Below are positions 9,470 to 46,527 of a DNA stretch of 56,207 nt, piece by piece. The DNA lies in assembly GCF_002081825.1 (NCBI RefSeq), contig NZ_MUKU01000032.1, positions 1-56,207 on the forward strand, in the 5' to 3' direction. How positions within the stretch are numbered: the stretch's first letter is position 1; each line of letters opens with the position of its first letter. The notes beneath the pieces were generated by a model. That model did not search any database and was not told the DNA's origin. It was given only the letters and a program-made list of their open reading frames with translations. The position numbers and the translations under genes were made by a program. The stretch comes from Chromobacterium haemolyticum (GTDB taxonomy: Bacteria > Pseudomonadota > Gammaproteobacteria > Burkholderiales > Chromobacteriaceae).

Positions 9470-12400
9470 TCCGGCAAAGCATGCGCGTCTTGATCGCGCT
9501 CTTGATCGCGCTGGCGATCTGGTGGATAGGCCCGCTGATTTCCATCGGCGTCTACCGGCCGCTGGGCTGGGCGCTGCTGCGACAAATTCTAGTGGCGGCG
9601 GTGTTGATCTGGGGCTTCTGGCCGCTGCTGAGCTGGCTATGGGGCCGGCTGAGCGCCGCGCCGCGTTCCTTCCGCCGCGCGCCCAAACCTGAGCCCGAGC
9701 CTGAGCCGGACCCCGGCCCGCTGGATTACATCAGCGACACCTTGCAGCAATTGGAACGCCAGTTGAGCCGTCGCGGCGGCGCGCCGCTGCCGTGCTATCT
9801 GCTGCTGGGCGCCGCCGGCAGCGGCAAAAGCAGCTTGTTGTCCTGGACGCTGCGCGACGGCGCGGAACCGACGGCGGTGGCAGCGATAGGACAGGGCATG
9901 GGACTGGATTTTCGCCTGTCCTCGGACGCGGTGTGGCTGGACACCCAGGGCCAGTGGAACGTGAGCGAAGGCTACGACCAGGAGGCCGCGGCGGCCTGGG
10001 ACAAGCTGCTGGCCGGCCTAGGCGCTTTGCGCGACAAGATCAGCGTCAGCGGCGTGGTGCTGTGCGTGGGCGGCGACGATTTGATCGCGATGGCGTCCAA
10101 ACGCCGTCAGCAAATGGCCGCCACCTTGCGCCAGCGCCTGCTCAAGTTGCGCGACGGCCTGGGTCGCACCCCCAACGTCTACCTGGCGCTGACCGGGGCG
10201 GACCGGCTGGACGGCGCGCTGGCGATGCTGAACCAGATGCGGCCGGAGCGCTGGGCGCGCGGCATCGGCTTCCCCTTGCCGTTGGAAGCCGGCGCGGACG
10301 CCTCCGGCGCCTGGGCGCCGGCCTTGCATAGCTTGGAACAGCGGGTGCAGCGCCAGGTATTGTTCGCCGCGCCCTTGGCTGGCGAGGTGGAGGCCAACCA
10401 CGCCCAGCTGCGCTTCGTGGAGGCGCTGGGCCGGCTGCGCCAGGCGCTGCAAGGCTTGCTGCCGCCGCTGTTCGCCCGCGACGGCGACGAAGACGCCGCC
10501 CATTTGCGCGGACTGTGGCTGGGCTCGGTGGCGGAAGTGGCCGACATCGAGATCGACGGACCGGAGCCGACGACGCGGCCCTTGGGCGAGCTGTGGACGC
10601 CCTTGCTGCGGCAGGTGGCCGTGGAACGGCAATTGATGGAGCAGAACCTGACCGCGGTCGAACGTCAGGCTCGGGAACGGCCGGCCCCGCCCGCGCCGCC
10701 GTCGCGCAAGCGCCGGCTGCTGAATGCCCTGCGTTGGGCGACTTTGCCGATGCTGGCACTGGCCTTGCTGGTCTGGGTGGCTTGGGGCTATTTCGCCGAG
10801 CGCAATTATCTGGAATACGTCTGGGCCCAGTTCAGCGAGGGCAAGACGCTGGCGCGGGAGCAGGCCGGCAGCGCGCCCAGCACCGGATCGCCGCTACTGG
10901 CGGTGGCGGCTCAAATGCGCTACGCGCAGGCCCAGGCCGAAAGCGCCGAGCGCGGGATGAGAACCCCGTATTTCGAGCACCGTCGCGTGGCTGAAACCGC
11001 CACCGCCACTTATCACCGCCATCTGCAGAAAACGCTGATGCCGGAGTTGTACAACGAGGTGAAGCGCACCTTGCTGGCGCAGACCGAAGGCAGCCCCGGC
11101 GACATCTTCCTGACGCTCAAGGTCTATCTGATGTTGTGCCGGCCGCAGTACCGTTCCGCCGACGCGGTGGAGCGCTGGATCTCCGGCCGCTGGGAAGCGC
11201 TGTCCGAAGGGCAATACAACGACGAGGACCGGCGCATGCTGATCGCCGACGCGCGCGCGCTGATCACGCTGCCCGGCCTGCCGGCGGCGCCGGAGGACGC
11301 CAACCTGGTGCAGACCGCCCGCGCCCGCGCTTCGCAGATTCCGGTGGTGACTCGGGTGCTCAACCATGTGCGGGAGCAGGGCCTGCCGTCCCAGATTCAG
11401 GACATCTCGCTGGCGCGCGCGGCCGGCTTCGGCTCGGCGATGAGCCTGCGCCTGCGCAACAATGTGCCGGATACCGACAGCGCCGTTTCCGGCTGGTACA
11501 CCCGCGCCGGCTATGTCGACGCCTTCCTGCCCAGGCTGGAGCCCAGCGCCCGGGCCATGCTGGAGGAGCAGAGTTGGGTGCTGCGCAACGAGCCGCTGCG
11601 GGGCAACGGTTTTGAAATCGATAGCCTGGTGCAGAAGCTGGCCGATAGCGCCCGCAATCAATATCTGCAGGACTACATCACCGCCTGGCAAAGCTTTCTT
11701 GCCAATGTCAGCGTGCGCTCCGTCACCGGCCTGGACGACGCCGCGCAGCTGGCGGCGTCGATGATGAACTCGCAATCGCCGCTGGCCAATCTGCTGCGTT
11801 TCGCCGGGCGCGAAACCATGCTGACCGGCAACTACGACGGGGGCATGGATAGCTGGATAGACCGCCAGAAGGCGCGGCTGGAAAAAAGCCGCCGCTCCCT
11901 GGTCGGCGAGATCAACGGCGAGCGCTACCGCACCACCTTGCTGCCGGAGCACGCGGTGGAGGAGCACTTCCAGGCCTTGCGTCAGATCGCCAAGCAATTG
12001 GAGAAAAACGACAACAGCGGAAGCAACCCCTTGGCGCGGCTGTTCGACTCGCTGTATCGCCAGTTGGGCCTGGTCAACGGCGCCTTGCAAACCGGCCAGG
12101 TGCTGCCGGCGCAATACGATGTGTTTACCAAGCTGCGCGGCGACGCCGGCCTGCAGCCGGAGCCGGTGCGCGGCATCATGCTGGACCTGATCAACAACGG
12201 CAGCGCCGCCACTTCCAGCCAGACCCAGGCGGTGCTGAACAAGGGGGCGGCCGGCGCCACGCGCAGCGCCTGCGATCAGGGTTTGACCGGCCGCTACCCG
12301 TTCCGCCGCGGCGCCGGCGCGGACGCCAGCGTAGAGGGCTTTGAGCGGCTGTTCGCGCCCCAGGGCGCGATGGCGGTGTATTTCCGCGAGCATCTGGCCG

Positions 12401-38382: not shown

Positions 38383-38772
38383 TCAAATATTCGCATAATG
38401 GGCAGTTAAGTCTAATCCTTTGTCATGTTTACCTATTGTAGAGGCTTCTGAATTTTGCCCTGCGCCTAGCATCGTAATCGCTAGGAACAAAGCGGCAACG
38501 TTGCGCGAATGCCGCAAAAAAATGCTCTTGATGTACTCTTTTGCTACGGGGTCTTTCGTGTATTCATAGTCTAAACAAGCCTTTACCTCTCTTGCGTCAA
38601 GTCCGAGTATGTCAGCTATGACATATCCCGCTACTGGCGGTGCCTGTCTTCTTCCTCCCATGATGTCACTCATCTTTTTTACGTCGATTAGCAGCAATTT
38701 TGCAACAGCATAATCACTCGTAAGCCCTTCTTTTTGCTTAATTTCTTCTACGTAGTCTTTGAATGTTTTCAT
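38383..38772 (-). CDS. Putative phage repressor (DUF3693-like)
   Basis: This 129-residue protein is transcribed opposite to the structural genes. The N-terminal half (KTFKDYVEEIKQKEGLTSDYAVAKLLLIDVKKMSDIMGGRRQAPP) reads as a helix-turn-helix of the type found in phage repressors and DUF3693 proteins. The C-terminal part has a hydrophobic stretch (NVAALFLAITMLGAG). The gap upstream holds two matching palindromes, so repression of both promoters is likely. The last residues (AHYANI) are encoded by the attL site. The stop comes from chromosomal sequence, so the C-terminus may differ in the circular phage. Confidence 0.72.
   Translation of the reverse strand: MKTFKDYVEEIKQKEGLTSDYAVAKLLLIDVKKMSDIMGGRRQAPPVAGYVIADILGLDAREVKACLDYEYTKDPVAKEYIKSIFLRHSRNVAALFLAITMLGAGQNSEASTIGKHDKGLDLTAHYANI
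38388..38416. other. attL: degenerate dif-like site
   Basis: A TATTCGCATAA arm (XerC type) is followed by a seven-base centre, TGGGCAG, and a degenerate XerD-type arm, TTAAGTCTAAT, that matches the right-hand site at nine of eleven positions. The unusual centre marks phage-derived sequence. Confidence 0.75.
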
Positions 38773-38796
38773 TCGAACAATCCTTAATTATTTGCC

Positions 38797-38851
38797 ATAT
38801 CCCCAACTAGGGGTTAGCCTTCTGTTCAGACTATCCCCTGTGTGGGGTTAG
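38797..38851. promoter_or_regulatory. Two repressor operators in divergent phage promoter
   Basis: TATCCCC-AACTA-GGGGTTAG (38798-38817) and CTATCCCC-TGTGT-GGGGTTAG (38831-38851) are two copies of one interrupted palindrome with centres 34 bp apart. A TTGACA box follows at 38860. They lie between the leftward repressor gene and the rightward ssDNA-binding gene, so the repressor is the likely ligand. Confidence 0.7.
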
Positions 38852-38930
38852 TTTCGTTCTTGACAGATCATTTTATCAGCGTTGCAGCCCGCCAGCTGCA
38901 CTGATATTCCAACGTGCTAGAGGTTCTCAA

Positions 38931-39245
38931 ATGGCTGAACAACCGACTTCCAAACCTTCTCTCTCGGCAAATATGGCCGTCGTTATTGGCCGTATCAAAG
39001 CCGTCCGCAAGTCCGATGATTTCGTCCACACCGAAGTGATCCAGCCAGCCCCGGATGAATACAGCATGCCGGGGGTCGTAGAGGTTCGCTCCCGCAAGCG
39101 CCTGGGCGACATCGGACAAGATGTTCACATCAAGGTTCAGTGTACTGGCTACTACGGCAAGCCGTTCGATAGTAAAGACAAAGTTACCGGCGAGATTGTT
39201 AAGAAACGTGCTGTCATCAACGTTTTTTCCGCGATTGAAGATTAA
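38931..39245 (+). CDS. Phage single-stranded DNA-binding protein (gV-like)
   Basis: This 104-residue protein has the size, position and character of the inovirus ssDNA-binding protein that coats the plus strand before packaging. A beta-rich core is evident (VEVRSRKRLGDIGQDVHIKVQCTGYYGK, KRAVINVFSAIED). It is the first gene rightward of the operator region, with AGAGG before the ATG. No membrane segment is present, in line with a cytoplasmic role. Confidence 0.82.
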   Translation: MAEQPTSKPSLSANMAVVIGRIKAVRKSDDFVHTEVIQPAPDEYSMPGVVEVRSRKRLGDIGQDVHIKVQCTGYYGKPFDSKDKVTGEIVKKRAVINVFSAIED

Positions 39246-39307
39246 CCCCCGGTCTGCGCATTGGCTACGTGTGCGGACCTTTTCCATTTGTAGCCATGGA
39301 GATTGAA

Positions 39308-39508
39308 ATGAAACATATGAATGTTGCCCGCAAGTTCGCCCTGGGTCTGTTCGCAATGGCTGCTGCTGCATCGGCCAACGCTGCTGTCTCTGAGGAGATT
39401 ACCAAGGCCATCAAGGATTCCGGCGCTGACGCCGCTATCGTCGGTGGCTTGGTGCTCGTTGTGATGGTTGGCATTGCCGGCTTCAAATGGCTGCGTAAGG
39501 CGGTGTGA
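39308..39508 (+). CDS. Major coat protein (gVIII-like)
   Basis: This is a 66-residue prepilin-like coat protein. It has a signal peptide ending ASANA at residue 25 and a mature part of about 41 residues. The mature part has an acidic N-terminus (AVSEEITKAIKDSGAD), a hydrophobic middle (AAIVGGLVLVVMVGIAG) and a basic end (FKWLRKAV). This charge pattern is the standard for filamentous phage major coats. The ATG at 39308 with GGAG upstream gives the right signal peptide. Confidence 0.92.
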   Translation: MKHMNVARKFALGLFAMAAAASANAAVSEEITKAIKDSGADAAIVGGLVLVVMVGIAGFKWLRKAV

Positions 39509-39822
39509 TGGGCTTCGCTGTCGGCTATGCCTGCTATTCGGATCAGGCGTCGGCAGCGGACGCGCTTTACACGTCTACTGCTCCGCGCATTACTGAGACT
39601 GGCTATCAGGCTTTTGAGAAGAGCGGGCATAGCTGGCAGCTAAATAACTACCGTAACAGCCCCGATGGGGCTGTTTTAGTTTCTAGCTCGCTTGTTGTGC
39701 CTAAATTTGCTGAATGTGATCCTCAGCAGCTTATTTTTGACGGCGTCTCATTAGGTTGGCTGGTTTTGACGCCGGCAATTATTGTATGGGGCATTCTTGT
39801 TTTAAAAAGGGCGCTGACATGA
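39508..39822 (+). CDS. Small phage protein with C-terminal membrane segment
   Basis: This 104-residue protein is translationally coupled to the major coat gene (TGATG at 39506-39510). A predicted membrane helix lies near the C-terminus (LGWLVLTPAIIVWGILVLKRAL), preceded by about 75 polar residues. The N-terminus (MGFAVGYACYSDQASAADA) may be a weak signal peptide. Its place between the major coat and the adsorption protein suggests a minor virion or assembly protein. I do not recognise the family. Confidence 0.75.
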   Translation: MGFAVGYACYSDQASAADALYTSTAPRITETGYQAFEKSGHSWQLNNYRNSPDGAVLVSSSLVVPKFAECDPQQLIFDGVSLGWLVLTPAIIVWGILVLKRALT

Positions 39823-39881
39823 TTTATTTTGCCGCTGGTTTCATTTCTATTTTGTTTGTAGGAATGGTGCTATTCAAATGA
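39819..39881 (+). CDS. 20-residue membrane peptide (gVII/gIX-like candidate)
   Basis: A short frame from ATG to TGA gives MIYFAAGFISILFVGMVLFK, almost entirely one hydrophobic helix with a terminal Lys. It overlaps the preceding stop and the next start by four bases each (ATGA at both ends), which is strong evidence for translation despite its size. Inoviruses such as M13 have similarly tiny tip proteins gVII (33 residues) and gIX (32 residues); equivalence is inferred from size and position. Confidence 0.7.
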   Translation: MIYFAAGFISILFVGMVLFK

Positions 39882-41233
39882 ATATAATGCGCCTGTTTCT
39901 ATATTTTCTAGTGGGCGTCATGATTTCGGCGGCGGCTAGTTTTTCTTTTGCGGGAAGCTATAGAGTTGGCACCTATTATCGTTACGGTGATTCAATTACT
40001 CGCAAAGTGACATCCGCTTCTGACGCTCAAAAGCTATCTGATACCGTAATGAAGGTTGCTTTAGACGATGCTAAAAATGCGCGGGTGACTACGCAAATTG
40101 CTGTCAATATGGAGTCCAATCTAGTCCAGTCACGCATTCTTGATCAAATACCTATTCCCGCCGCTGCGGCTGCTGCTGCGGCTGCTTCAGCGCTTAAAAA
40201 GGGCCGCATTAATCCAGGTGCCATTGTTGCCAATCTTTTGGCTGATTATGCTGTTCAAAAAGGTTGGGAGATGATGAAAGATGCTCAATGTGAAATGAAG
40301 GCTGGCGGATGCTGGAATGCGCCTGCAAGCGGCATTAATGAGTCTAATGCTTCTGATTGTGATATGTATTCACTCGCTTGGGGTCAAAAGGGTACTTTTA
40401 TAGTACATATTCCAGGTTGGGTTTGTATTCAAACTACGGGCGGCGGTCCTTCTTTTAATCCTGATAAATGTTTCTACAGAAACAACATTCCTGTCGGTGG
40501 CGGAGAGTATGCGGGTTATTACTGGTGCAGAGAAACGACGCCGGTCAAATATGCTCAGAGTTCGCCCGCCACTCAAAATGATATCGACAATTTGGCAAAA
40601 GACTATTACTACAACTATACGCAACCTCTTTTTGAAGGCTTTATGAAAGAGGGGACTATTTTTGAATTGGATGACAATACGCCTGTAACGACTTCTGGTG
40701 ATCCTGTTACCGGTCCAAAGTCTGTTTCTGCATCGGGCACTAAAAAAAACGCTGACGGTACAGAATCGCAATGGCAAACAGAGACTCAGACCACTTATAC
40801 CCCCAAAGGCGATGGCAAGGCCGGCGGTGAAATCAAAATTGGAAAAACGACTACGACAACGACAACAACAAATACGTGTACGGGTGCAGGCTCTTGCACA
40901 ACTAATTCGAATACGACAACAACAAAGCCGCCTGAGGAACAAAAAACAGATTGTGACAAGCATCCCAATTCTATTGGTTGCTCGGAATATGGTGATCCTC
41001 CGACAATTACTATTCCGGAATCCACACAAAATGTCACATTTGAATGGAATCCCTTTTCACTTCCTGCCACATGTCCGCCTGATTATGTTTTTACGCTATC
41101 GAATGGGATGACGTACCATTATTCTTTTGAGTGGTTTTGTCGATTTGCTTCGGCTATGAAGACGGTCATTCTTTTGGCTGCATTTGTTGCTGCTTATTAC
41201 ATTTGTTTTGGTGCAAGGAAGGGTGAGTCATGA
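39878..41233 (+). CDS. Minor coat/adsorption protein (gIII-like)
   Basis: This 451-residue protein has an N-terminal signal peptide (about 1-25, cleavage near SFSFA), a large extracytoplasmic part with many paired cysteines, and a low-complexity Thr/Lys/Gly linker (about 290-360 with a run of Thr). A C-terminal membrane anchor follows (VILLAAFVAAYYICFGARKGES). This layout matches the gIII attachment proteins of filamentous phage. The repetitive linker codons ACG/ACA give a polymorphic stretch. It overlaps neighbours on both sides by four bases. Confidence 0.88.
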   Translation: MNIMRLFLYFLVGVMISAAASFSFAGSYRVGTYYRYGDSITRKVTSASDAQKLSDTVMKVALDDAKNARVTTQIAVNMESNLVQSRILDQIPIPAAAAAAAAASALKKGRINPGAIVANLLADYAVQKGWEMMKDAQCEMKAGGCWNAPASGINESNASDCDMYSLAWGQKGTFIVHIPGWVCIQTTGGGPSFNPDKCFYRNNIPVGGGEYAGYYWCRETTPVKYAQSSPATQNDIDNLAKDYYYNYTQPLFEGFMKEGTIFELDDNTPVTTSGDPVTGPKSVSASGTKKNADGTESQWQTETQTTYTPKGDGKAGGEIKIGKTTTTTTTTNTCTGAGSCTTNSNTTTTKPPEEQKTDCDKHPNSIGCSEYGDPPTITIPESTQNVTFEWNPFSLPATCPPDYVFTLSNGMTYHYSFEWFCRFASAMKTVILLAAFVAAYYICFGARKGES

Positions 41234-41505
41234 ATCTTGCAAGCTTTTTAATTTCGATGGTGAAACCGCTTATTGCTCAGATTTTAGTGAGCCTTGGCTT
41301 GTCGATAATTACTTTTGGCGGCATTCAAATGATTTTGACGCAACTAAATGGCTATATTCAAAATAGCTTGAATGGCTTGCCTGTTGTTGTATCAAACTTA
41401 TTTGGCTTGGCCGGTGTAGGTGAAGCGTTAGGTATTATTGTCGGTGCCTTTGCTTTTCGCTTGTCTATGGGTTCGTTTAAGCGCATTGACTTCAAGAGCA
41501 AATAA
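41230..41505 (+). CDS. Minor coat protein, DUF2523/gVI-like
   Basis: This 91-residue hydrophobic protein has two to three predicted membrane segments (IAQILVSLGLSIITFGGIQMIL; VVSNLFGLAGVGEALGIIVGAFAF) and a basic tail. It resembles the DUF2523 family that takes the gVI place in Pseudomonas and Neisseriales inoviruses, helping to cap the virion end with gIII. ATGA overlap with the gIII-like gene. Confidence 0.87.
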   Translation: MNLASFLISMVKPLIAQILVSLGLSIITFGGIQMILTQLNGYIQNSLNGLPVVVSNLFGLAGVGEALGIIVGAFAFRLSMGSFKRIDFKSK

Positions 41506-41507
41506 TT

Positions 41508-42554
41508 ATGTTGACTCTAATTACTGGTGATCCTGGTACGGGCAAATCAGCGTTAGCTGTTTCTATGATGCTTGAAGAGCAGGGCGAGCGTCCTTTGTTT
41601 GTGATGGGTATTTCAGAGCTAAAGATACCGCATGAAGTGGCGCCGCCGGTTGCAGAGTGGACAAAGCTCGTGCCTTTGCCGGAAGACCCTTCAATCCAGC
41701 GTCCTGTTTTTCAATTCCCGCCTAATGCAATCCTTCTAGTCGATGAAGCACAGACCGTATATAGACCGCGTGCGGCTGGTAGCCGCGTTCCTGACCATGT
41801 TGCGGCGATTGAAACTCATCGCCATACCGGCATTGATATTTGGCTGATTACTCAGGGCGTGCATTTAATAGACTCCAATGTCCGTCCGCTTGTGGGTCGA
41901 CATGTCCATATTCGTGCGCTGCCTTTTGGCCGCAAGCTTTATGAGTGGTCCGAGTGTGGAGACCCAAAGAGTAAAACCTCCCGCGATATTGCTGCACGGC
42001 GAAACTACAAATTACCCAAGAAAGTATTTGGTCTTTATAAAAGCGCTAGTCTTCACGTTAAAGTTGATAAGCGAATGCCTACTTATGTTTGGGTTATTGG
42101 ATTTTCTATTGTCATTGCTTTGCTATTGGCCTTTTTTGCGTATCGTTCTATTAATCGAAAGATGCACCAGGGCGAGCAGGCTCAGCCTAGTTTAACGCAG
42201 CCGGATCGGACGCCTGAGGTGGCGACGACGGCGCAGCCGGCGGCGCGTCCTCAGGCGGATGTGACGGCGGTTTCGATTTACGAGGCTGAGCATCCGCGTA
42301 TCGCTGGAAGGCCTGAGACAGCTCCGCTATATGATGCTCAGCGCTCTGTAAAAGCTATGCCTATGGTTGTGGGCTATATCGCCAGCAAAGGGCGCTGTAA
42401 GGCGTTTACACAGCAAGGGACGGTAGTTGCGATGTCGAATGAGCAGTGCTTGTCTGAGATGGAGCAGCCTCGCTATAACCCGTATCTTGATCAACAGGTT
42501 TCGCCGCCACAAACGACAAACATTAAAACTCAACAGATAGAGGTTAAGAAATGA
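41508..42554 (+). CDS. zot: Zot-family phage assembly ATPase (gI-like)
   Basis: This 348-residue inner-membrane ATPase extrudes phage particles. Walker A GDPGTGKSA is at residues 7-15 and Walker B ILLVDEAQ near 83-90. A Zot-type H-R-H-T-G segment follows (ETHRHTGIDIWLITQGVHLID), then one membrane helix (about 196-216, VWVIGFSIVIALLLAFFAY) and a periplasmic tail with a Cys pair (GRCKAF, NEQCLSE). The name refers to family only; no toxin activity is implied. Three bases separate it from the gVI-like gene. Confidence 0.94.
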   Translation: MLTLITGDPGTGKSALAVSMMLEEQGERPLFVMGISELKIPHEVAPPVAEWTKLVPLPEDPSIQRPVFQFPPNAILLVDEAQTVYRPRAAGSRVPDHVAAIETHRHTGIDIWLITQGVHLIDSNVRPLVGRHVHIRALPFGRKLYEWSECGDPKSKTSRDIAARRNYKLPKKVFGLYKSASLHVKVDKRMPTYVWVIGFSIVIALLLAFFAYRSINRKMHQGEQAQPSLTQPDRTPEVATTAQPAARPQADVTAVSIYEAEHPRIAGRPETAPLYDAQRSVKAMPMVVGYIASKGRCKAFTQQGTVVAMSNEQCLSEMEQPRYNPYLDQQVSPPQTTNIKTQQIEVKK

Positions 42555-42634
42555 CTTATTTGTTTTGGTTATTAATGCTAGCTTTTTCAGCGTATGGTCT
42601 AGTTCTTATTTTTAAGTTTTTCCTACGGGGTTAA
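42551..42634 (+). CDS. 27-residue membrane peptide after zot
   Basis: ATG overlaps the zot stop (ATGA) and the frame encodes a 27-residue peptide with a single hydrophobic helix flanked by a few polar residues and ending FKFFLRG. Overlap with zot supports translation. It could be another tip protein or an assembly helper; the function is unknown. Confidence 0.6.
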   Translation: MTYLFWLLMLAFSAYGLVLIFKFFLRG

Positions 42635-42639
42635 CTAAA

Positions 42640-42876
42640 ATGCAAACGATTGAAATTTTTGATATTCTCAAGCTTTGTTTAATTGTTTCTTTTTTTGCCT
42701 TTTTCTCTGGCTTTGGAGTTTCTAGCTTTGCTGGAATGTTATTTAGTTCAAGGCGAATCGAAAAATATTTCGATAGATTAATTAAGCCGCCTTCAAAAGA
42801 TTTAATTGCCAGGGCTTTAAAAATAAGAGTTGCTAAATTACAACGGAGAATAAAAGAATTTGAGAATTCCAATTAA
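42640..42876 (+). CDS. Small membrane protein, unknown
   Basis: This 78-residue product has one N-terminal membrane helix (LCLIVSFFAFFSGFGVSSFAGMLF, about 12-35). A basic amphipathic cytoplasmic tail follows (RRIEKYFDRLIKPP, KIRVAKLQRRIKEFENSN). It lies five bases after the 27-residue frame, ahead of the regulator gene. AT-rich codon use matches the phage block. Function not recognised. Confidence 0.65.
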   Translation: MQTIEIFDILKLCLIVSFFAFFSGFGVSSFAGMLFSSRRIEKYFDRLIKPPSKDLIARALKIRVAKLQRRIKEFENSN

Positions 42877-42885
42877 ATAACTTCC

Positions 42886-42910
42886 ATTATTCGTTACCAT
42901 AACGGATAAT
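42886..42910. promoter_or_regulatory. Extended palindrome upstream of the iteron-bearing gene
   Basis: The core CGTTA-CCA-TAACG (42892-42904) is extended on both sides by ATTAT and ATAAT, giving a 25-bp near-palindrome that ends 26 bases before the ATG. It is the same core as the sites within and after the gene, so autoregulation is likely. Confidence 0.7.
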
Positions 42911-42936
42911 GAATTATCTAAACGGAGTTTACGCAA

Positions 42937-43587
42937 ATGGCTAAAGACATGAATGACAGCGCAACGCTTGAATTGATTCCGACTGCTAAGAAACGTGGCC
43001 GTCCTGCGAGTGGCAAAGCATTAACCAATGCTGAGCGTCAGCGTATATTTAGGCTTTCTAAAAAATTTAAGCATCACTTAGAATTAACTGATGATCAGTG
43101 GGTTAATTTGATTTGTGTCATTGACGCTGCCGCAAGAAGCAGCACGTATTTTAGTTCGAGTAAAGAGACCTTTGAATTAATGAGGCTTGTTTACAATTCT
43201 CGCTTTAATGATGAATTGCCGGCTGAATATTCTAAATCGTTTGATTTTACGTCCGTTACCGTAACGGAAAATCAACTCGTCCAAGAAAGCGTTACCGTAA
43301 CGGAAATTGAGGATGTTGAGGACAAACCCGTTACCGTAACGAAAAAGCCGCGTGTTAAGAAGGCGCTGGCCCAGGTTCAGGCCCAGTCAAAAGAACCCGT
43401 TACCGTAACGGAAATTCCCGATACTACTAAAGCCGTTACTGTAACGAAAAACAATTTTCAGGTGCGCTACGTTCATCCGGATGAACCTATGCTTACCTGG
43501 ACGGGTAGGGGGCGTCAGCCTGTGTGGGTTAAAAACTGGCTTGATGGTGGCGGCCAGATTGACGATTTGTGGGTCCGCCATGACTAA
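42937..43587 (+). CDS. Phage regulator: CopB/RepB-like N-terminus, VTVT repeats, H-NS-like C-terminus
   Basis: This 216-residue protein has three parts. Residues 17-50 (KKRGRPASGKALTNAERQRIFRLSKK) match the basic N-terminus of plasmid and phage replication-regulatory proteins. Residues 105-170 hold five VTVT[E/K] repeats. Residues 174-215 resemble the H-NS DNA-binding domain (RYVHPDEP, TWTGRGRQPVWVKNWL, GGGQIDDLWV). Each VTVT is written as GTTAC-C/T-GTAACG, a palindromic DNA site, so the coding sequence doubles as a site array. An operator lies upstream and a terminator downstream. It probably regulates phage gene expression or replication. The three-part domain reading is mine and needs confirmation. 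Confidence 0.75.
   Translation: MAKDMNDSATLELIPTAKKRGRPASGKALTNAERQRIFRLSKKFKHHLELTDDQWVNLICVIDAAARSSTYFSSSKETFELMRLVYNSRFNDELPAEYSKSFDFTSVTVTENQLVQESVTVTEIEDVEDKPVTVTKKPRVKKALAQVQAQSKEPVTVTEIPDTTKAVTVTKNNFQVRYVHPDEPMLTWTGRGRQPVWVKNWLDGGGQIDDLWVRHD
43254..43446 (+). repeat. Five in-frame CGTTA-N3-TAACG palindromes inside a CDS
   Basis: Copies lie at 43254-43266, 43290-43302, 43329-43341, 43398-43410 and 43434-43446. Four have the centre CCG and the last has CTG. Spacings are 36, 39, 69 and 36 bases, all multiples of three, and every copy is read as Val-Thr-Val-Thr. The palindrome itself is conserved rather than only the amino acids, since each copy uses the same codons GTT-ACC/T-GTA-ACG. Confidence 0.9.
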
Positions 43588-43604
43588 CTTTCAATTCTTC
43601 TTTT

Positions 43605-43617
43605 TGTTACCGTAACG
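43605..43617. repeat. Palindromic site after the regulator gene
   Basis: TGTTACCGTAACG, one arm base changed, lies 18 bases past the stop and upstream of the terminator. Confidence 0.8.
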
Positions 43618-43637
43618 AAAACCCCGCTTCTAAAAAT

Positions 43638-43664
43638 GCCCAGGTGTGCGCCCTGGGCTTTTTT
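43638..43664 (+). terminator. Rho-independent terminator of the phage operon
   Basis: GCCCAGG-TGTGCGC-CCTGGGC is followed by six T. It ends the transcript running from the coat genes through the regulator gene and isolates rep. Confidence 0.9.
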
Positions 43665-43676
43665 GTATCTATTTTC

Positions 43677-43689
43677 CGTTACCGTAACG
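43677..43689. repeat. Palindromic site past the terminator
   Basis: A perfect CGTTACCGTAACG lies 12 bases after the terminator T-run, at the edge of the intergenic region leading to rep. Confidence 0.85.
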
Positions 43690-43984
43690 AAATTCTTTGG
43701 GCCTCTGCCTCTCGCCCCGGCTCTTCTGAAGACCTCTCATAGCTCTCTCACCCGCTCGCTTCCGTAGCCCCGCGAAGCGCCCCTAGGGGCCCCATGCGGG
43801 CGTTTTGTGCCCGCCGTGGGGGTAGGGGGACTAGGCCGCCATCGAGCGGCCGTAGTAGGGCGTCATAATCACTTCACAATGTCACCTAATTGGGGTTATT
43901 CTTACGTTACTCCAAATGAAAAACCCCCAAGTCAGTTGCAGCTGATCTTGGGGGGTGTTGCGAACACGACAGATACAGGCTGCC
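43690..43984. other. Phage intergenic region: candidate origin and packaging signal
   Basis: This is a 295-base non-coding stretch packed with inverted repeats. GCCCCTAGGGGC is at 43779-43790, GCGGGC-N7-GCCCGC at 43796-43814, and GGCCGC-N6-GCGGCC at 43834-43851. A long hairpin lies at 43923-43956 (ACCCCCAAG and TCAG paired with CTGA and CTTGGGGGGT), only 28 bases before rep. Inovirus origins and packaging signals are hairpins in just such a region next to the initiator gene. The individual assignments cannot be made from sequence alone. Confidence 0.65.
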
Positions 43985-45079
43985 ATGCACACCGAAACTA
44001 TATACCCTGAAGGTCCGATTTCCAAGCCTCTTAGTCGTCAGGACGCGAAGCGTCCGCATGGGCTTGTCTTATATTCAACAAGTGCGACGCACGAGCAGCG
44101 GTTCTTTGAAGCGCGTGCTAGCCGCCTCAAGCGCATGAAGCGGACCGTCATCACGTCCGCCAGAATTCATGCGGAACACGTCTCAGCGAAGGGCTTTCGT
44201 AAGCCCAAAGCTGCCATGCTGACGTTGACCTATCGTCCTGATGCTGATTACAGCCCCCGTCACGTTTCTGACCTGCTTGAGCGCGTGCGCAAGTGGCTCA
44301 AGCGGCGCGGCGTCCATCAGCTGCGGTATGTGTGGGTTTTGGAGCTTACCAAGGCCGGCAAGCCTCATTATCACCTTGTGTTCTTTCTTCCGCGTGGCCT
44401 GACGCTTCCCAAGCCTGATAAACAGGGCTGGTGGCCGCATGGGTCCACACGTATCGAGTGGGCCCGCAATGCGGTGGGCTATCTTGCGAAATATGCGAGC
44501 AAAGGCGGGGACGGCTGGCAGTTGCCGGTAGGCGCGAGGCTTTACGGCGCCGGGGGCTTTACAGATGATCAGCGTGAAGAGCGCGCTTACATTCTTGCGC
44601 CTGGCTGGATTCGTGCGGTCTGGGACAACAAGGATTACAAGGTGCGTCGCGCGATTGGCGGCGGCTGGATCAGCCTAGCTACGGGTGTGTGGATGGCTTC
44701 GCCGTTCATTGTCCAGTTTGACGGTAAGCGTAATGGCGTTACGGTAACGCCAATGGACGTAAAGACCTTCGTTTCAGTCGCTCACGACACATGGCGTGAA
44801 GACATTGGCTTGCGCGATTTCGTCCGTGAGTGCCTTGAAGGCGGTGGGAAAGTCGTTCAACTTGGTCAGAAACAAGTGACCGGGTCACTCCGTAGTCCTA
44901 TGTTTGGAGATGACCCGGACACGCCGGAATATTGGCAAAAGCTTGGCCGCTTGTATTGCAAAGCGATTGAAGCGATGGGCCGCGACGATCTGCGCTTTCA
45001 TGAGTCGCAGCTTGATCGAGAGTGGGCGGCTTTTTTTTCTGCGTCTCAGGTTCGCATAATGTATATTATGTCAAATTAA
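43985..45079 (+). CDS. Rolling-circle replication initiator (gII-like Rep)
   Basis: This 364-residue HUH endonuclease nicks the phage origin. The His-hydrophobic-His motif is His128 and His130 (KPHYHLVFF). The catalytic tyrosine motif is Y166-L-A-K-Y170, a two-tyrosine arrangement, in VGYLAKYASKGG. The ATG at 43985 gives a normal start; earlier in-frame TTG/GTG codons lie in the intergenic hairpin. A CGTTA-CGG-TAACG palindrome lies inside the gene (44737-44749), again read as VTVT. The last ten codons (QVRIMYIMSN) are encoded by the dif site, so the C-terminus depends on integration. Confidence 0.9.
   Translation: MHTETIYPEGPISKPLSRQDAKRPHGLVLYSTSATHEQRFFEARASRLKRMKRTVITSARIHAEHVSAKGFRKPKAAMLTLTYRPDADYSPRHVSDLLERVRKWLKRRGVHQLRYVWVLELTKAGKPHYHLVFFLPRGLTLPKPDKQGWWPHGSTRIEWARNAVGYLAKYASKGGDGWQLPVGARLYGAGGFTDDQREERAYILAPGWIRAVWDNKDYKVRRAIGGGWISLATGVWMASPFIVQFDGKRNGVTVTPMDVKTFVSVAHDTWREDIGLRDFVRECLEGGGKVVQLGQKQVTGSLRSPMFGDDPDTPEYWQKLGRLYCKAIEAMGRDDLRFHESQLDREWAAFFSASQVRIMYIMSN
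44737..44749. repeat. Palindromic site inside rep
   Basis: CGTTACGGTAACG is a perfect palindrome around a CGG centre (within the 15-base GCGTTACGGTAACGC), translated as V-T-V-T in NGVTVTPM. It is the ninth site of the family in the prophage. Confidence 0.8.
45049..45076. other. attR: canonical dif site for XerC/XerD
   Basis: The site has arms GGTTCGCATAA and TTATGTCAAAT around the centre TGTATA. It differs from the E. coli dif sequence at only two positions by my recollection. It marks the prophage right end and probably the chromosome dimer-resolution locus, and hence the replication terminus region. Confidence 0.93.
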
Positions 45080-45124
45080 GGAAGCTAGGGAAAAAGCTCC
45101 CCAAGTTCTTCGCCGCCTTCATCG

Positions 45125-45808
45125 TCAAGCCCCCTCCGCCAGAGCCTGCCATCTCACCGTGCCGCCCAACTGGTCGGTTTGCGTCTGATCTGCGTCGATG
45201 CCGATCCCGTTCACCAGCTGAGGCACCAGGGTTTGCATCATTTGGTAGCCCCGTTGCGGGATCTCCGGCACGCTGCTGCAAGATTGCCAGTAATGCTGAA
45301 AAGGCAGTTCATACAACTGTGCTCCACTCAGTCCCGCGTCGGAACCTACATACAAGCCTGGCGCGTAGCCCGCGGCGGAAACCGCTTCAAACCATTGCGA
45401 ACAATAGTCGGCCACATCCTGCGCCGCCGTCCCATCCGCCACGCCTTCCAGATCGCACCAGATGTTCACGCCGGGCAATAATCCGACCGTTTTCGCGTGC
45501 GCAGCGGTGTTTTGGCCGTCGCTTTTGCCCATGGCCGCATTCGGCGACCAACCGGGCTCTCTCACGTGTTGCACGGCCATCAAAGCCAGGCTCGCTTCAA
45601 GAATATCCTGCGCCTCGCTTGCGGACAGGTCTGAGGCGTACTCATCGGACCCTAGCGAGAGATAACGAACACAAAATTGGTAGCCGGAGGCGGCGAACTG
45701 CCGGGCGAGCTCCAGGGACAGCGGCGTATCGGCGTCAAATCCATGCGCGCCGGCCGCAGCGGCTTCAACGTAGATTCCGCTTGGACTGTAAGAGGCGTTC
45801 ATCTTCAT
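45125..45808 (-). CDS. DUF1906 glycoside-hydrolase-like protein
   Basis: This protein of about 227 residues matches the DUF1906 (Rv2525c-like) family, a TIM-barrel related to glycoside hydrolase family 25 lysozymes. Motifs include GFDADTPLS at the start, QFCVRYLS, LPGVNIWCDLEG (acidic residues at the barrel mouth) and PGLYVGSDAG. An in-frame extension to 45871 would add a hydrophobic N-terminus (AAWLMLMSVVFCVGL) that could serve as a signal sequence, so the start is uncertain; I use the ATG with GGGA upstream. It lies just right of dif and may act on peptidoglycan or a polysaccharide. Confidence 0.75.
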   Translation of the reverse strand: MKMNASYSPSGIYVEAAAAGAHGFDADTPLSLELARQFAASGYQFCVRYLSLGSDEYASDLSASEAQDILEASLALMAVQHVREPGWSPNAAMGKSDGQNTAAHAKTVGLLPGVNIWCDLEGVADGTAAQDVADYCSQWFEAVSAAGYAPGLYVGSDAGLSGAQLYELPFQHYWQSCSSVPEIPQRGYQMMQTLVPQLVNGIGIDADQTQTDQLGGTVRWQALAEGA

Positions 45809-45895
45809 TAGTCCCACGCAAAAAACAACACTCATCAGCATAAGCCAGGCGGCGTCTTGCGCAGTGCCCATTGGGATGGTTGCGTCTTGGAATGA

Positions 45896-46210
45896 CTATG
45901 TTTCGTTTTGACGCTTGGTCGCGGGCTTGTGAAAACAATCCGGCGGCGGATTGCCTTTGATGGCGGCGCTGTAGATTTTCCTGGCCAGCGCGAAATCGGA
46001 CTCGCCGTAACGCGATGGATCGGCTTTTACTGCTTGCTCCAGCATATTGGTCAGGTGGGCCCACTCCTGGTCATTTAGCGTTACAGTGACGGTATTTGCC
46101 CGGTACTTGCGTTGTCGTTCCGCTCCGGACATAGCCAGGCCGGTGCTAGGACGGCCGCGCTTTTTGGTCGCGGCGGTGTTGGCTTCACCTTGCCGCTGTT
46201 CTTTCTTCAT
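45896..46210 (-). CDS. Small replication-regulator-like DNA-binding protein
   Basis: This 104-residue protein shares the basic KKRGRPSTGLAMSGAERQRKYRA segment (residues 16-38) with the prophage regulator at 42937. The shared part continues through the TVTVTLNDQEWAHL region, which could be the strand-helix of a ribbon-helix-helix fold. It lacks the repeat and H-NS-like parts. Its gene contains a CGTCA-CTG-TAACG hybrid site encoding VTVT, and two CGTCA-N3-TGACG palindromes lie upstream. It looks like a paralogue with a diverged operator, perhaps from a second phage or plasmid that used the same dif. Confidence 0.72.
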   Translation of the reverse strand: MKKEQRQGEANTAATKKRGRPSTGLAMSGAERQRKYRANTVTVTLNDQEWAHLTNMLEQAVKADPSRYGESDFALARKIYSAAIKGNPPPDCFHKPATKRQNET

Positions 46211-46249
46211 CGCCAGCCCTCCTCTGCTTATTTGTCTAAGTTAATTATG

Positions 46250-46290
46250 CGTCACCGTGACGGAAATTCAAAATTATCGTCACGGTGACG
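46250..46290. promoter_or_regulatory. Two CGTCA-N3-TGACG operators before the small regulator
   Basis: CGTCACCGTGACG (46250-46262) and CGTCACGGTGACG (46278-46290) are perfect arms with centres 28 bp apart, 40-80 bases upstream of the minus-strand start. They differ from the prophage sites by T to C in each half. Confidence 0.8.
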
Positions 46291-46527
46291 AAAATATCAC
46301 GCCTAGAGGCCATGCCGCTTGGTGCTTTTGCCCGTTACTTCGCCCGGTATGCATAATTAATTCGAAGGATATATGGTATTGAGATGCTATTTTTTTTGTT
46401 TTTGGATTAAAATTTGGAATAAAGTAAATATGTGACAGATATTTGCATGGCATTTTATTTGTCGAGTTCGCCCGCGAGAGCGATAACCAGCAACACTGGC
46501 TGCGCGCAGCCGGAAGCAACGATCTAA
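46291..46527. other. AT-rich non-coding gap
   Basis: I see no gene in this stretch. It is clearly AT-richer than its surroundings. It contains GGTATGCATAA at 46346-46356, nine of eleven matches to the XerC arm of the dif at 45049. Promoters for the MarR-type gene presumably lie near its right end. Confidence 0.6.

Follow-up and report, generated by a model that had tools for sequence, protein, structure and literature searches.

This analysis concerns a regulator gene, P0001, of an inovirus prophage in the 56,207-nucleotide contig NZ_MUKU01000032.1 of Chromobacterium haemolyticum (the whole stretch is called the window in the following), which carries five copies of a short palindrome within its own reading frame. 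Selection acts on the DNA of these in-gene sites, and the best explanation, to which we assign a probability of about 60% on the basis of sequence comparisons, is that P0001 would be an autorepressor whose operators lie both at the promoter and within its gene. P0001 is a member of a scattered family with an AT-hook-like KRGRP and the motif AERQRxYR, found in inoviruses and Aeromonas plasmids, and in the genes of this family the pentamer GTNAC, which as a pattern is its own reverse complement, occurs in pairs.

Selection acts on the DNA of the in-gene sites

An initial annotation of this DNA had listed nine copies of CGTTA-N3-TAACG, five of them in frame within P0001 and translated as Val-Thr-Val-Thr (VTVT), and a scan of the window bore this out. 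With up to one mismatch, CGTTANNNTAACG is matched ten times in the window as compared to 0.42 expected matches, and none of 100 shuffles reached ten. One match lies upstream of P0001 (42892), five are inside the gene, two follow it, one is within the replication gene rep, and the tenth, at 46079 with one mismatch, had not been listed before (Table 1). In the 5.29-Mb genome (88 contigs), the strict form CGTYACNGTRACG is found ten times, always within positions 43254-46290 of the window, and its reversed control once. A related gene outside the prophage (P0002, 45896-46210), which had been missed as well, accounts for three of these ten sites. The looser form GTNACNGTNAC is found at 48 places genome-wide as compared to 66 for its reversed control, and thus only the strict form is special at the level of the genome.

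In all five in-gene copies the codons are GTT ACC/ACT GTA ACG, and GTA is used for none of the 12 valines of P0001 outside the sites. Given five VTVT and the codon use of the phage block, the probability of finding GTT-ACN-GTA-ACG five times out of five is about 1e-9, assuming independent copies. When codons were permuted among identical residues of the gene, which keeps the protein, 2000 such shuffles gave a mean of 0.16 and a maximum of 2 strict sites, whereas P0001 has 5. Codon use and the protein-preserving shuffle thereby confirm the earlier suggestion that the DNA palindrome is under selection. Any choice of codons for VTVT gives GTNACNGTNACN, and selection on DNA can therefore be told apart from selection on protein only by third positions, by flanks and by copies in other frames; as VTVT always gives GTNACNGTNAC, copies in frame 0 prove little.

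Could the palindrome nevertheless be a by-product of protein-level selection for VTVT, which might serve as a strand or docking motif? The invariable encoding just mentioned would fit this idea, and so would the fact that in P0002 and in Aeromonas two helices, predicted or likely, directly follow VTVT. Third positions and flanks are, however, fixed far beyond codon use, the site is also present in non-coding DNA at 43605 (with one change), at 43677 and nearly so at 42892, pentamers lie in other reading frames in some homologues and there code for other residues, and the linker with the five VTVT is mostly of low confidence in the structure model of P0001. The codon shuffle rejects VTVT as a pure protein repeat, and altogether we regard this explanation as highly improbable.

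The left flanks of the in-gene copies are 30% identical (random 27%) and the right flanks 45% (random 27%, P 0.003), the excess on the right stemming from the five A-rich bases adjacent to the site, beyond which identity is 30%. As the flanks have diverged except for these few bases, the unit is the site itself and not a longer repeat, and there is no indication that the in-gene copies arose by recent duplication of something longer. An Rfam scan of positions 42500-46400 gave no match.

A regulator family with paired GTNAC sites at its promoters

The P0001 protein consists of the AT-hook-like KRGRP, an AERQR helix, a helical domain, the linker with the five VTVT, and an H-NS C-terminal domain. 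The latter had been proposed before and was recovered by PF00816 (E 5.7e-13, 48.8 bits, cut-off 25.6), while the full-length NCBIfam H-NS model reached 16.8 bits (cut-off 211) with the C-terminal part only. KRGRP is invariant in alignments A1 and A2 and RGRP in A3; the Pfam model AT_hook has no match in P0001 at E up to 1 and is above its cut-off in the homologue L101. The N-terminus, which had been described as replication-regulator-like, is that of a protein family found in inoviruses and small plasmids: aligned with nine relatives, P0001 has the N-terminal signature KRGRP...A...AERQ...R, by which the GTNAC-associated family is defined in this analysis. Pfam gave no match to a curated CopB/RepB model at cut-off in P0001, P0002 or 10 relatives. 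IncFII CopB/RepB-type regulators have a short basic N-terminal motif of similar look, and an autoregulator role is plausible; in contrast to them, the family shows no such Pfam match even at E up to 1 (P0001, P0002) or up to 5 (relatives). L119 is the only homologue that weakly matches NF010256 (E 0.028, 14.5 bits, cut-off 87), and the homologue of phage 42-1 is annotated as RepB.

P0001 alone as query found no relative in the databases viral_contigs and phages, unlike the core alignment A2; the core alignment matched 57 viral contigs and 9 genome contigs, and one of its members matched 123 plasmids (112 from Aeromonas), six of which were examined. Including the window genes and some further ones, the set comprised 82 genes, of which 72 are distinct. 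A family-level search listed 43 of 61 genomes, with ten strong places in seven genomes (E below 1e-34); the remaining matches (E 9e-5 to 9e-4, mostly to profile positions 1-59) were left unused.

Within the 150 bases upstream of the start, 42 of the 72 genes have a GTNAC pair with 0-3 bases in between, and the best of 15 control palindromic pentamers reaches 6. GTNAC density is 19.3/kb in these upstream regions and 3.1/kb elsewhere. Moreover, in 38 of 58 distinct upstream pairs an ATAAT/AAAAT-like box follows after 1-2 nucleotides (background 3.3% per position), and a GTNAC pair that abuts a -10-like box is at the place where a repressor operator would be expected. The upstream site of P0001 is in the same register as those of the family; its 12-base arms are 92% complementary, and it contains the -10-like GATAAT (42905-42910). 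A record of 1,044 bp, in which the regulator is the only annotated gene, has two upstream pairs; it represents the Aeromonas caviae plasmid L122 (NZ_CP102337.1) and could be an assembly artefact.

In-gene sites in the homologues

Between +60 and +220, 20 of the 72 genes have a close GTNAC pair, the next pentamers being ACNGT with 9, which overlaps the motif, and GCNGC with 7. The view that the array has no described parallel is thus partly supported: further family members likewise have in-gene sites, and the array of P0001 represents an enlarged form of a more general pattern.

More telling than frame 0 are copies in the other frames and the C and G that flank the pentamer. In the coiled-coil group, CGTNACG occurs 57 times as compared to 10.1 in codon-shuffled genes (maximum 20; 26 genes), with 27 of the 57 copies reading CGT AAC (Arg-Asn), and in the Ralstonia-type group 36 times as compared to 13.4 (maximum 24; 8 genes). 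The family genes are related, and tests across them are therefore not independent; thinned below 60% identity, the two groups still gave 27 versus 4.9 (13 genes) and 26 versus 9.1 (5 genes), respectively. The strict site exceeds the shuffles in nine other Chromobacterium genes (5 versus 0.33) and in Aeromonas (2 versus 0.21), and Pseudomonas phage 42-1 has GTGAC...GTCAC at the spot after the motif, where it codes for other residues.

Close pairs both upstream and inside are present in 25 genes, which permits a comparison of spacing. An upstream spacing of 0 goes along with only spacing 0 inside in 7 of 7 genes, and an upstream spacing of 1 with only spacing 1 inside in 10 of 11, which is forced where the copies code for VTVT. 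Mixed spacing is found in L068 and in the Ralstonia-type genes L061, L073, L075, L082, L091, L101 and L114. Sites of the type GTTACGGTRAC that read as VTVT lie also within other inovirus genes (L023 at 12645 and 11551, L024 at 5988).

Tailed-phage replication initiators with an AERQR-type motif

A search of viral contigs for paired GTTACNGTAACG brought up L161, a tailed-phage replication initiator with a GTNAC array. Twenty of the 35 contigs were set aside, as their VTVTVTVT runs are simple-repeat DNA; among the others, L161 and L163 were followed, the latter without a match in the phages database, and L164, L147, L149, L130 and L160 were noted. Protein similarity was the sole criterion by which homologues of L161 were collected (the best 80 of at least 592); to these, nine named phages out of 31 matched records were added. 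Of these 89 initiators, 66 distinct ones were used, the rest having fewer than 150 amino acids or repeating the first 150 residues of another one. The motif was expressed as [AT][EQ]R[QMA][RKA].[YFH]R, which none of the nine named phages fits.

Initiators with the motif (n=29) have a median of 15.9 GTNAC/kb and those without (n=37) of 2.4/kb (Mann-Whitney P about 1e-11, uncorrected for relatedness), and CGTNACG occurs 189 times as compared to 55.6 in shuffles with the motif, and 5 times as compared to 5.3 without. In the motif-bearing genes, the GTNAC copies cluster 30-119 bases after and 211-270 bases before the motif. This comparison is the best sign that it may be the motif, rather than a host factor, that goes with the site.

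The chances are in our view about even that there is a recognition code, in which A[EQ]RQRxYR would read GTNAC and the address would be written in the reader's own gene, in inovirus regulators, small-plasmid regulators and otherwise unrelated tailed-phage initiators. We regard this link between motif and site as the most interesting part of the result; it suggests a simple protein-DNA code common to unrelated replicons and connects peptide repeats in phage proteins (VTVT, VTRD, QRNEK) with DNA sites. If such a code exists, lock and key are in one gene and move together when modules recombine. In L149, L130 and L160, which we read as replication-type proteins, a basic segment is followed by NVTVT/VTVT repeats with GTNAC, in the absence of the exact AERQR motif.

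Mechanism and alternatives

How could an autorepressor of this kind function? P0001 would recognize paired GTNAC pentamers (here CGTTAC-N-GTAACG with A/T-rich flanks), probably via the AERQRxYR helix, while the AT-hook-like KRGRP would touch the A/T-rich flank. Bound to its own promoter against the -10 box, the protein would repress its own transcription, and the additional sites in and just after the gene would probably make this repression tight or cooperative, possibly by looping, as a roadblock, or in a nucleoprotein patch that is aided by the H-NS-like tail. What we infer from sequence comprises binding, the binding part of the protein, dimerization, repression, looping and what the inner sites do. 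The earlier suggestions that the protein nucleates on its gene and spreads from there, controls the copy number or silences the prophage are putative. A little-studied inovirus accessory gene would thereby gain a probable binding site and a mode of action.

Alternatively, the array may represent replication-control iterons, as in lambda gene O, where the protein would bind the array beside rep and the rolling-circle origin and thereby set the copy number. In lambda, the origin lies inside gene O. The iterons of lambda O differ from GTNAC in site sequence, and, unlike lambda O, the inovirus and plasmid family has sites also at the promoter, and rep is a separate protein. The likeness lies in sites of the own product inside the coding sequence, which are putative in case of P0001: as far as the accessible part of the source goes, the ori iterons of lambdoid phages are located in the middle of O, and additional iterons lengthen the protein (PMC7466680). 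Sites under DNA-level selection lie inside the P0001 gene, their binding by P0001 and an activity as origin being putative. In favor of iterons, the array lies between promoter and rep, motif-bearing tailed-phage initiators have in-gene GTNAC arrays, and the family gene adjoins a replication gene in pAsa1, pAsa3 and pI064-2. Most inovirus relatives, however, have fewer in-gene sites, and a sister prophage in genome G012, 85% identical in DNA over 43723-45077 (rep and the region before it) and 38468-39246, has neither regulator gene nor array between zot and rep. This rep can thus occur without both, at least in a prophage that may be inactive. We therefore consider iterons rather unlikely.

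The sister prophage keeps the rep site, which had been taken as a target of the regulator. As this prophage lacks the regulator gene, the site may be incidental and is not necessarily dedicated to the regulator. Out of 13 relatives of rep in viral contigs, one (L266) carries a GTNAC pair close to the place of the rep site, as judged by position rather than by alignment. A host DNA-binding protein that reads the sites would agree with this conserved rep site no worse than the autorepressor does. Against such a host protein, the strict sites of the genome are confined to two family genes, their immediate surroundings and the neighboring rep, the family gene has such sites with it in various replicons, and the presence of the motif goes with arrays in the tailed-phage initiators, which together make it very unlikely. 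It is even more difficult to assign a role in partition, with a centromere-like site to which a small DNA-binding protein would attach. Clustered repeats and the order helix, extended segment, helix, helix in the P0002 model would be compatible with that, but the sites abut promoter-like boxes, and no ParA/ParM-like partner was recognized among the scanned window proteins or in two plasmid gene tables, with no search aimed specifically at such a partner; we give this role hardly any credence.

Besides the sister prophage, several results weigh against the autorepressor. The upstream site of P0001 itself is half off consensus, with ATAAC instead of GTNAC in its second half (the promoter region reads CGTTACCATAACG followed by GATAAT), and P0001 is thus among the 30 of 72 family genes that have no strict upstream pair. 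Some of these genes are truncated by the end of a contig or begin at a wrongly placed start; starts were set by rule, in at least L095 and L091 too far upstream. No GTNAC pair is present within the 10-kb cut for a relative in G064. Pair spacing is mostly 0-3 but extends up to 8, which is unusual for a single rigid dimer. Measured by CGTNACG, the count in P0001 alone lacks significance (4 versus 1.8, P 0.064), as do those in six Aeromonas genes (2 versus 1.6), 22 other members (3 versus 2.3) and the thinned spacing-1 group without P0001 (5 versus 3.7; 8 genes). Motif-free initiators exceed the shuffles for GTNAC in frame 1 (54 versus 30.1, maximum 46); three recurrent positions account for 31 of the 54, and 4 belong to L210, which has 11 GTNAC and whose AQRQSEYRNR was missed by the motif expression, and PAN70, likewise outside the expression, still has 10.5 GTNAC/kb. 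Finally, the structure models are weak (predicted local distance difference test scores of 69.7 and 58.1), and Foldseek with the P0002 model found no known fold at E 0.001 (best E 3.3).

The P0002 model shows a helix, an extended VTVT segment and two helices. A ribbon-helix-helix fold is supported neither by Foldseek, where none was present by title among the matches of this model, nor by the sequence search of PDB, where profile A3 had no match at E up to 1; with a weak model, this fold is still possible. A resemblance to bZIP proteins in N-x7-R spacing and a PAR-type site was dropped, as the Asn is not conserved.

Relation to known systems

P0001 shares the C-terminal DNA-binding domain with H-NS, but its N-terminus is that of the AT-hook/AERQR family, and the N-terminal part of H-NS is unmatched. 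The stoperators of Cluster A mycobacteriophages are reportedly spread over the phage genome, whereas the copies of P0001 lie in or next to its own gene. Common to both are many repressor-site copies, putative in case of P0001, outside the promoter operator, as far as the accessible part of the source describes them (PMC6550527). In filamentous prophages of Cupriavidus and Ralstonia, a regulatory role has been postulated for an AT-hook protein encoded downstream of pI, and the accessible part of that report indicates the same place after Zot/pI and the same N-terminal RGR-type AT-hook motif as in P0001 (PMC10011098). This likeness is one by description, and P0001 differs by its site, the promoter position, the codon-level selection and the H-NS tail; no DNA site or in-gene array is described in that accessible part (PMC10011098). 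Pf4r and the Ralstonia repressors are, in the accessible parts of their descriptions, described differently from P0001. A literature search that covers few subscription journals found no occurrence of CGTTACCGTAACG and, in the accessible material, no account of such sites; for shorter forms of the site, none of the hits was by its title on phage or plasmid regulators.

The prophage and the second regulator gene

The left end of the prophage is marked by the half-dif TTCGCATAAT at 38390-38399 and the right end by a full dif-like site at 45053-45076 within the 3' end of rep, both of which we take to be dif. Promoter-like sequences are more frequent in the region than in shuffles (8 versus 3.0 expected), and terminator-like sites amount to 6 versus 5.4 expected. 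In case of P0002, CGTCACCGTGACG fills the spacer between a -35-like TTGAAT (46271-46266) and a -10-like CATAAT (46249-46244). P0002 may have been retained from an earlier phage, or it may be a regulator that belongs to the host. In the window and in four Chromobacterium-type stretches (L023, L025, L056, L057), the P0002 relative adjoins the same gene, which we presume by eye to be of the MarR type.

Table 1. Coordinates of the regulator genes, their sites and the surrounding features in the window (ORF, open reading frame)
Feature	Position	Strand	Basis
Inovirus prophage, approximate limits	38390..45076		dif-like ends; coat, TspB-like, Zot, rep by Pfam/PHROGs
Probable promoter operator, CATTATTCGTTA-CCA-TAACGGATAATG	42885..42911		window scan, family register
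Regulator gene P0001, 216 amino acids	42937..43587	+	Pfam, family alignment, model, codon analysis
KRGRP codons (AT-hook-like core)	42991..43005	+	family alignments
AERQRIFR codons, motif associated with GTNAC sites	43030..43053	+	alignment, initiator comparison
In-gene site 1, CGTTACCGTAACG (SVTVTE)	43254..43266		window scan, codon analysis
In-gene site 2, CGTTACCGTAACG	43290..43302		window scan, codon analysis
In-gene site 3, CGTTACCGTAACG	43329..43341		window scan, codon analysis
In-gene site 4, CGTTACCGTAACG	43398..43410		window scan, codon analysis
In-gene site 5, CGTTACTGTAACG	43434..43446		window scan, codon analysis
H-NS C-terminal domain, residues 177-211	43465..43569	+	PF00816
Site 3' of regulator gene, TGTTACCGTAACG, one arm change	43605..43617		window scan
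Terminator-like hairpin 3' of regulator gene	43632..43664	+	hairpin scan
Last site of the array, CGTTACCGTAACG, 3' of the hairpin	43677..43689		window scan
Replication gene (rep), PF23343 ORF2/G2P	43955..45079	+	ORF list, Pfam; first GTG 43955, real start may be later
rep site, CGTTACGGTAACG (NGVTVTP)	44737..44749		window scan, codon analysis, sister prophage comparison
Homologous regulator gene P0002, 104 amino acids, outside prophage	45896..46210	-	alignment, gene context
Site within P0002, codes VTVT	46079..46091		window and genome scans
Upstream site of P0002, CGTCACCGTGACG	46250..46262		genome scan, promoter scan
Second upstream site of P0002	46278..46290		genome scan

Near the sister prophage of G012, a gene that we presume to be DUF2726-like (L279, reverse complement of 10773-11404) has CGTTACGGTGACG and CGTTAACGTAACG in front of it, with 56 bases between the two, and may share the regulator. 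Elsewhere in the same genome, a gene that we read as Arc-like (L169, 3106-3593) has two copies of GTCACGGTGAC just upstream, 58 bases apart.

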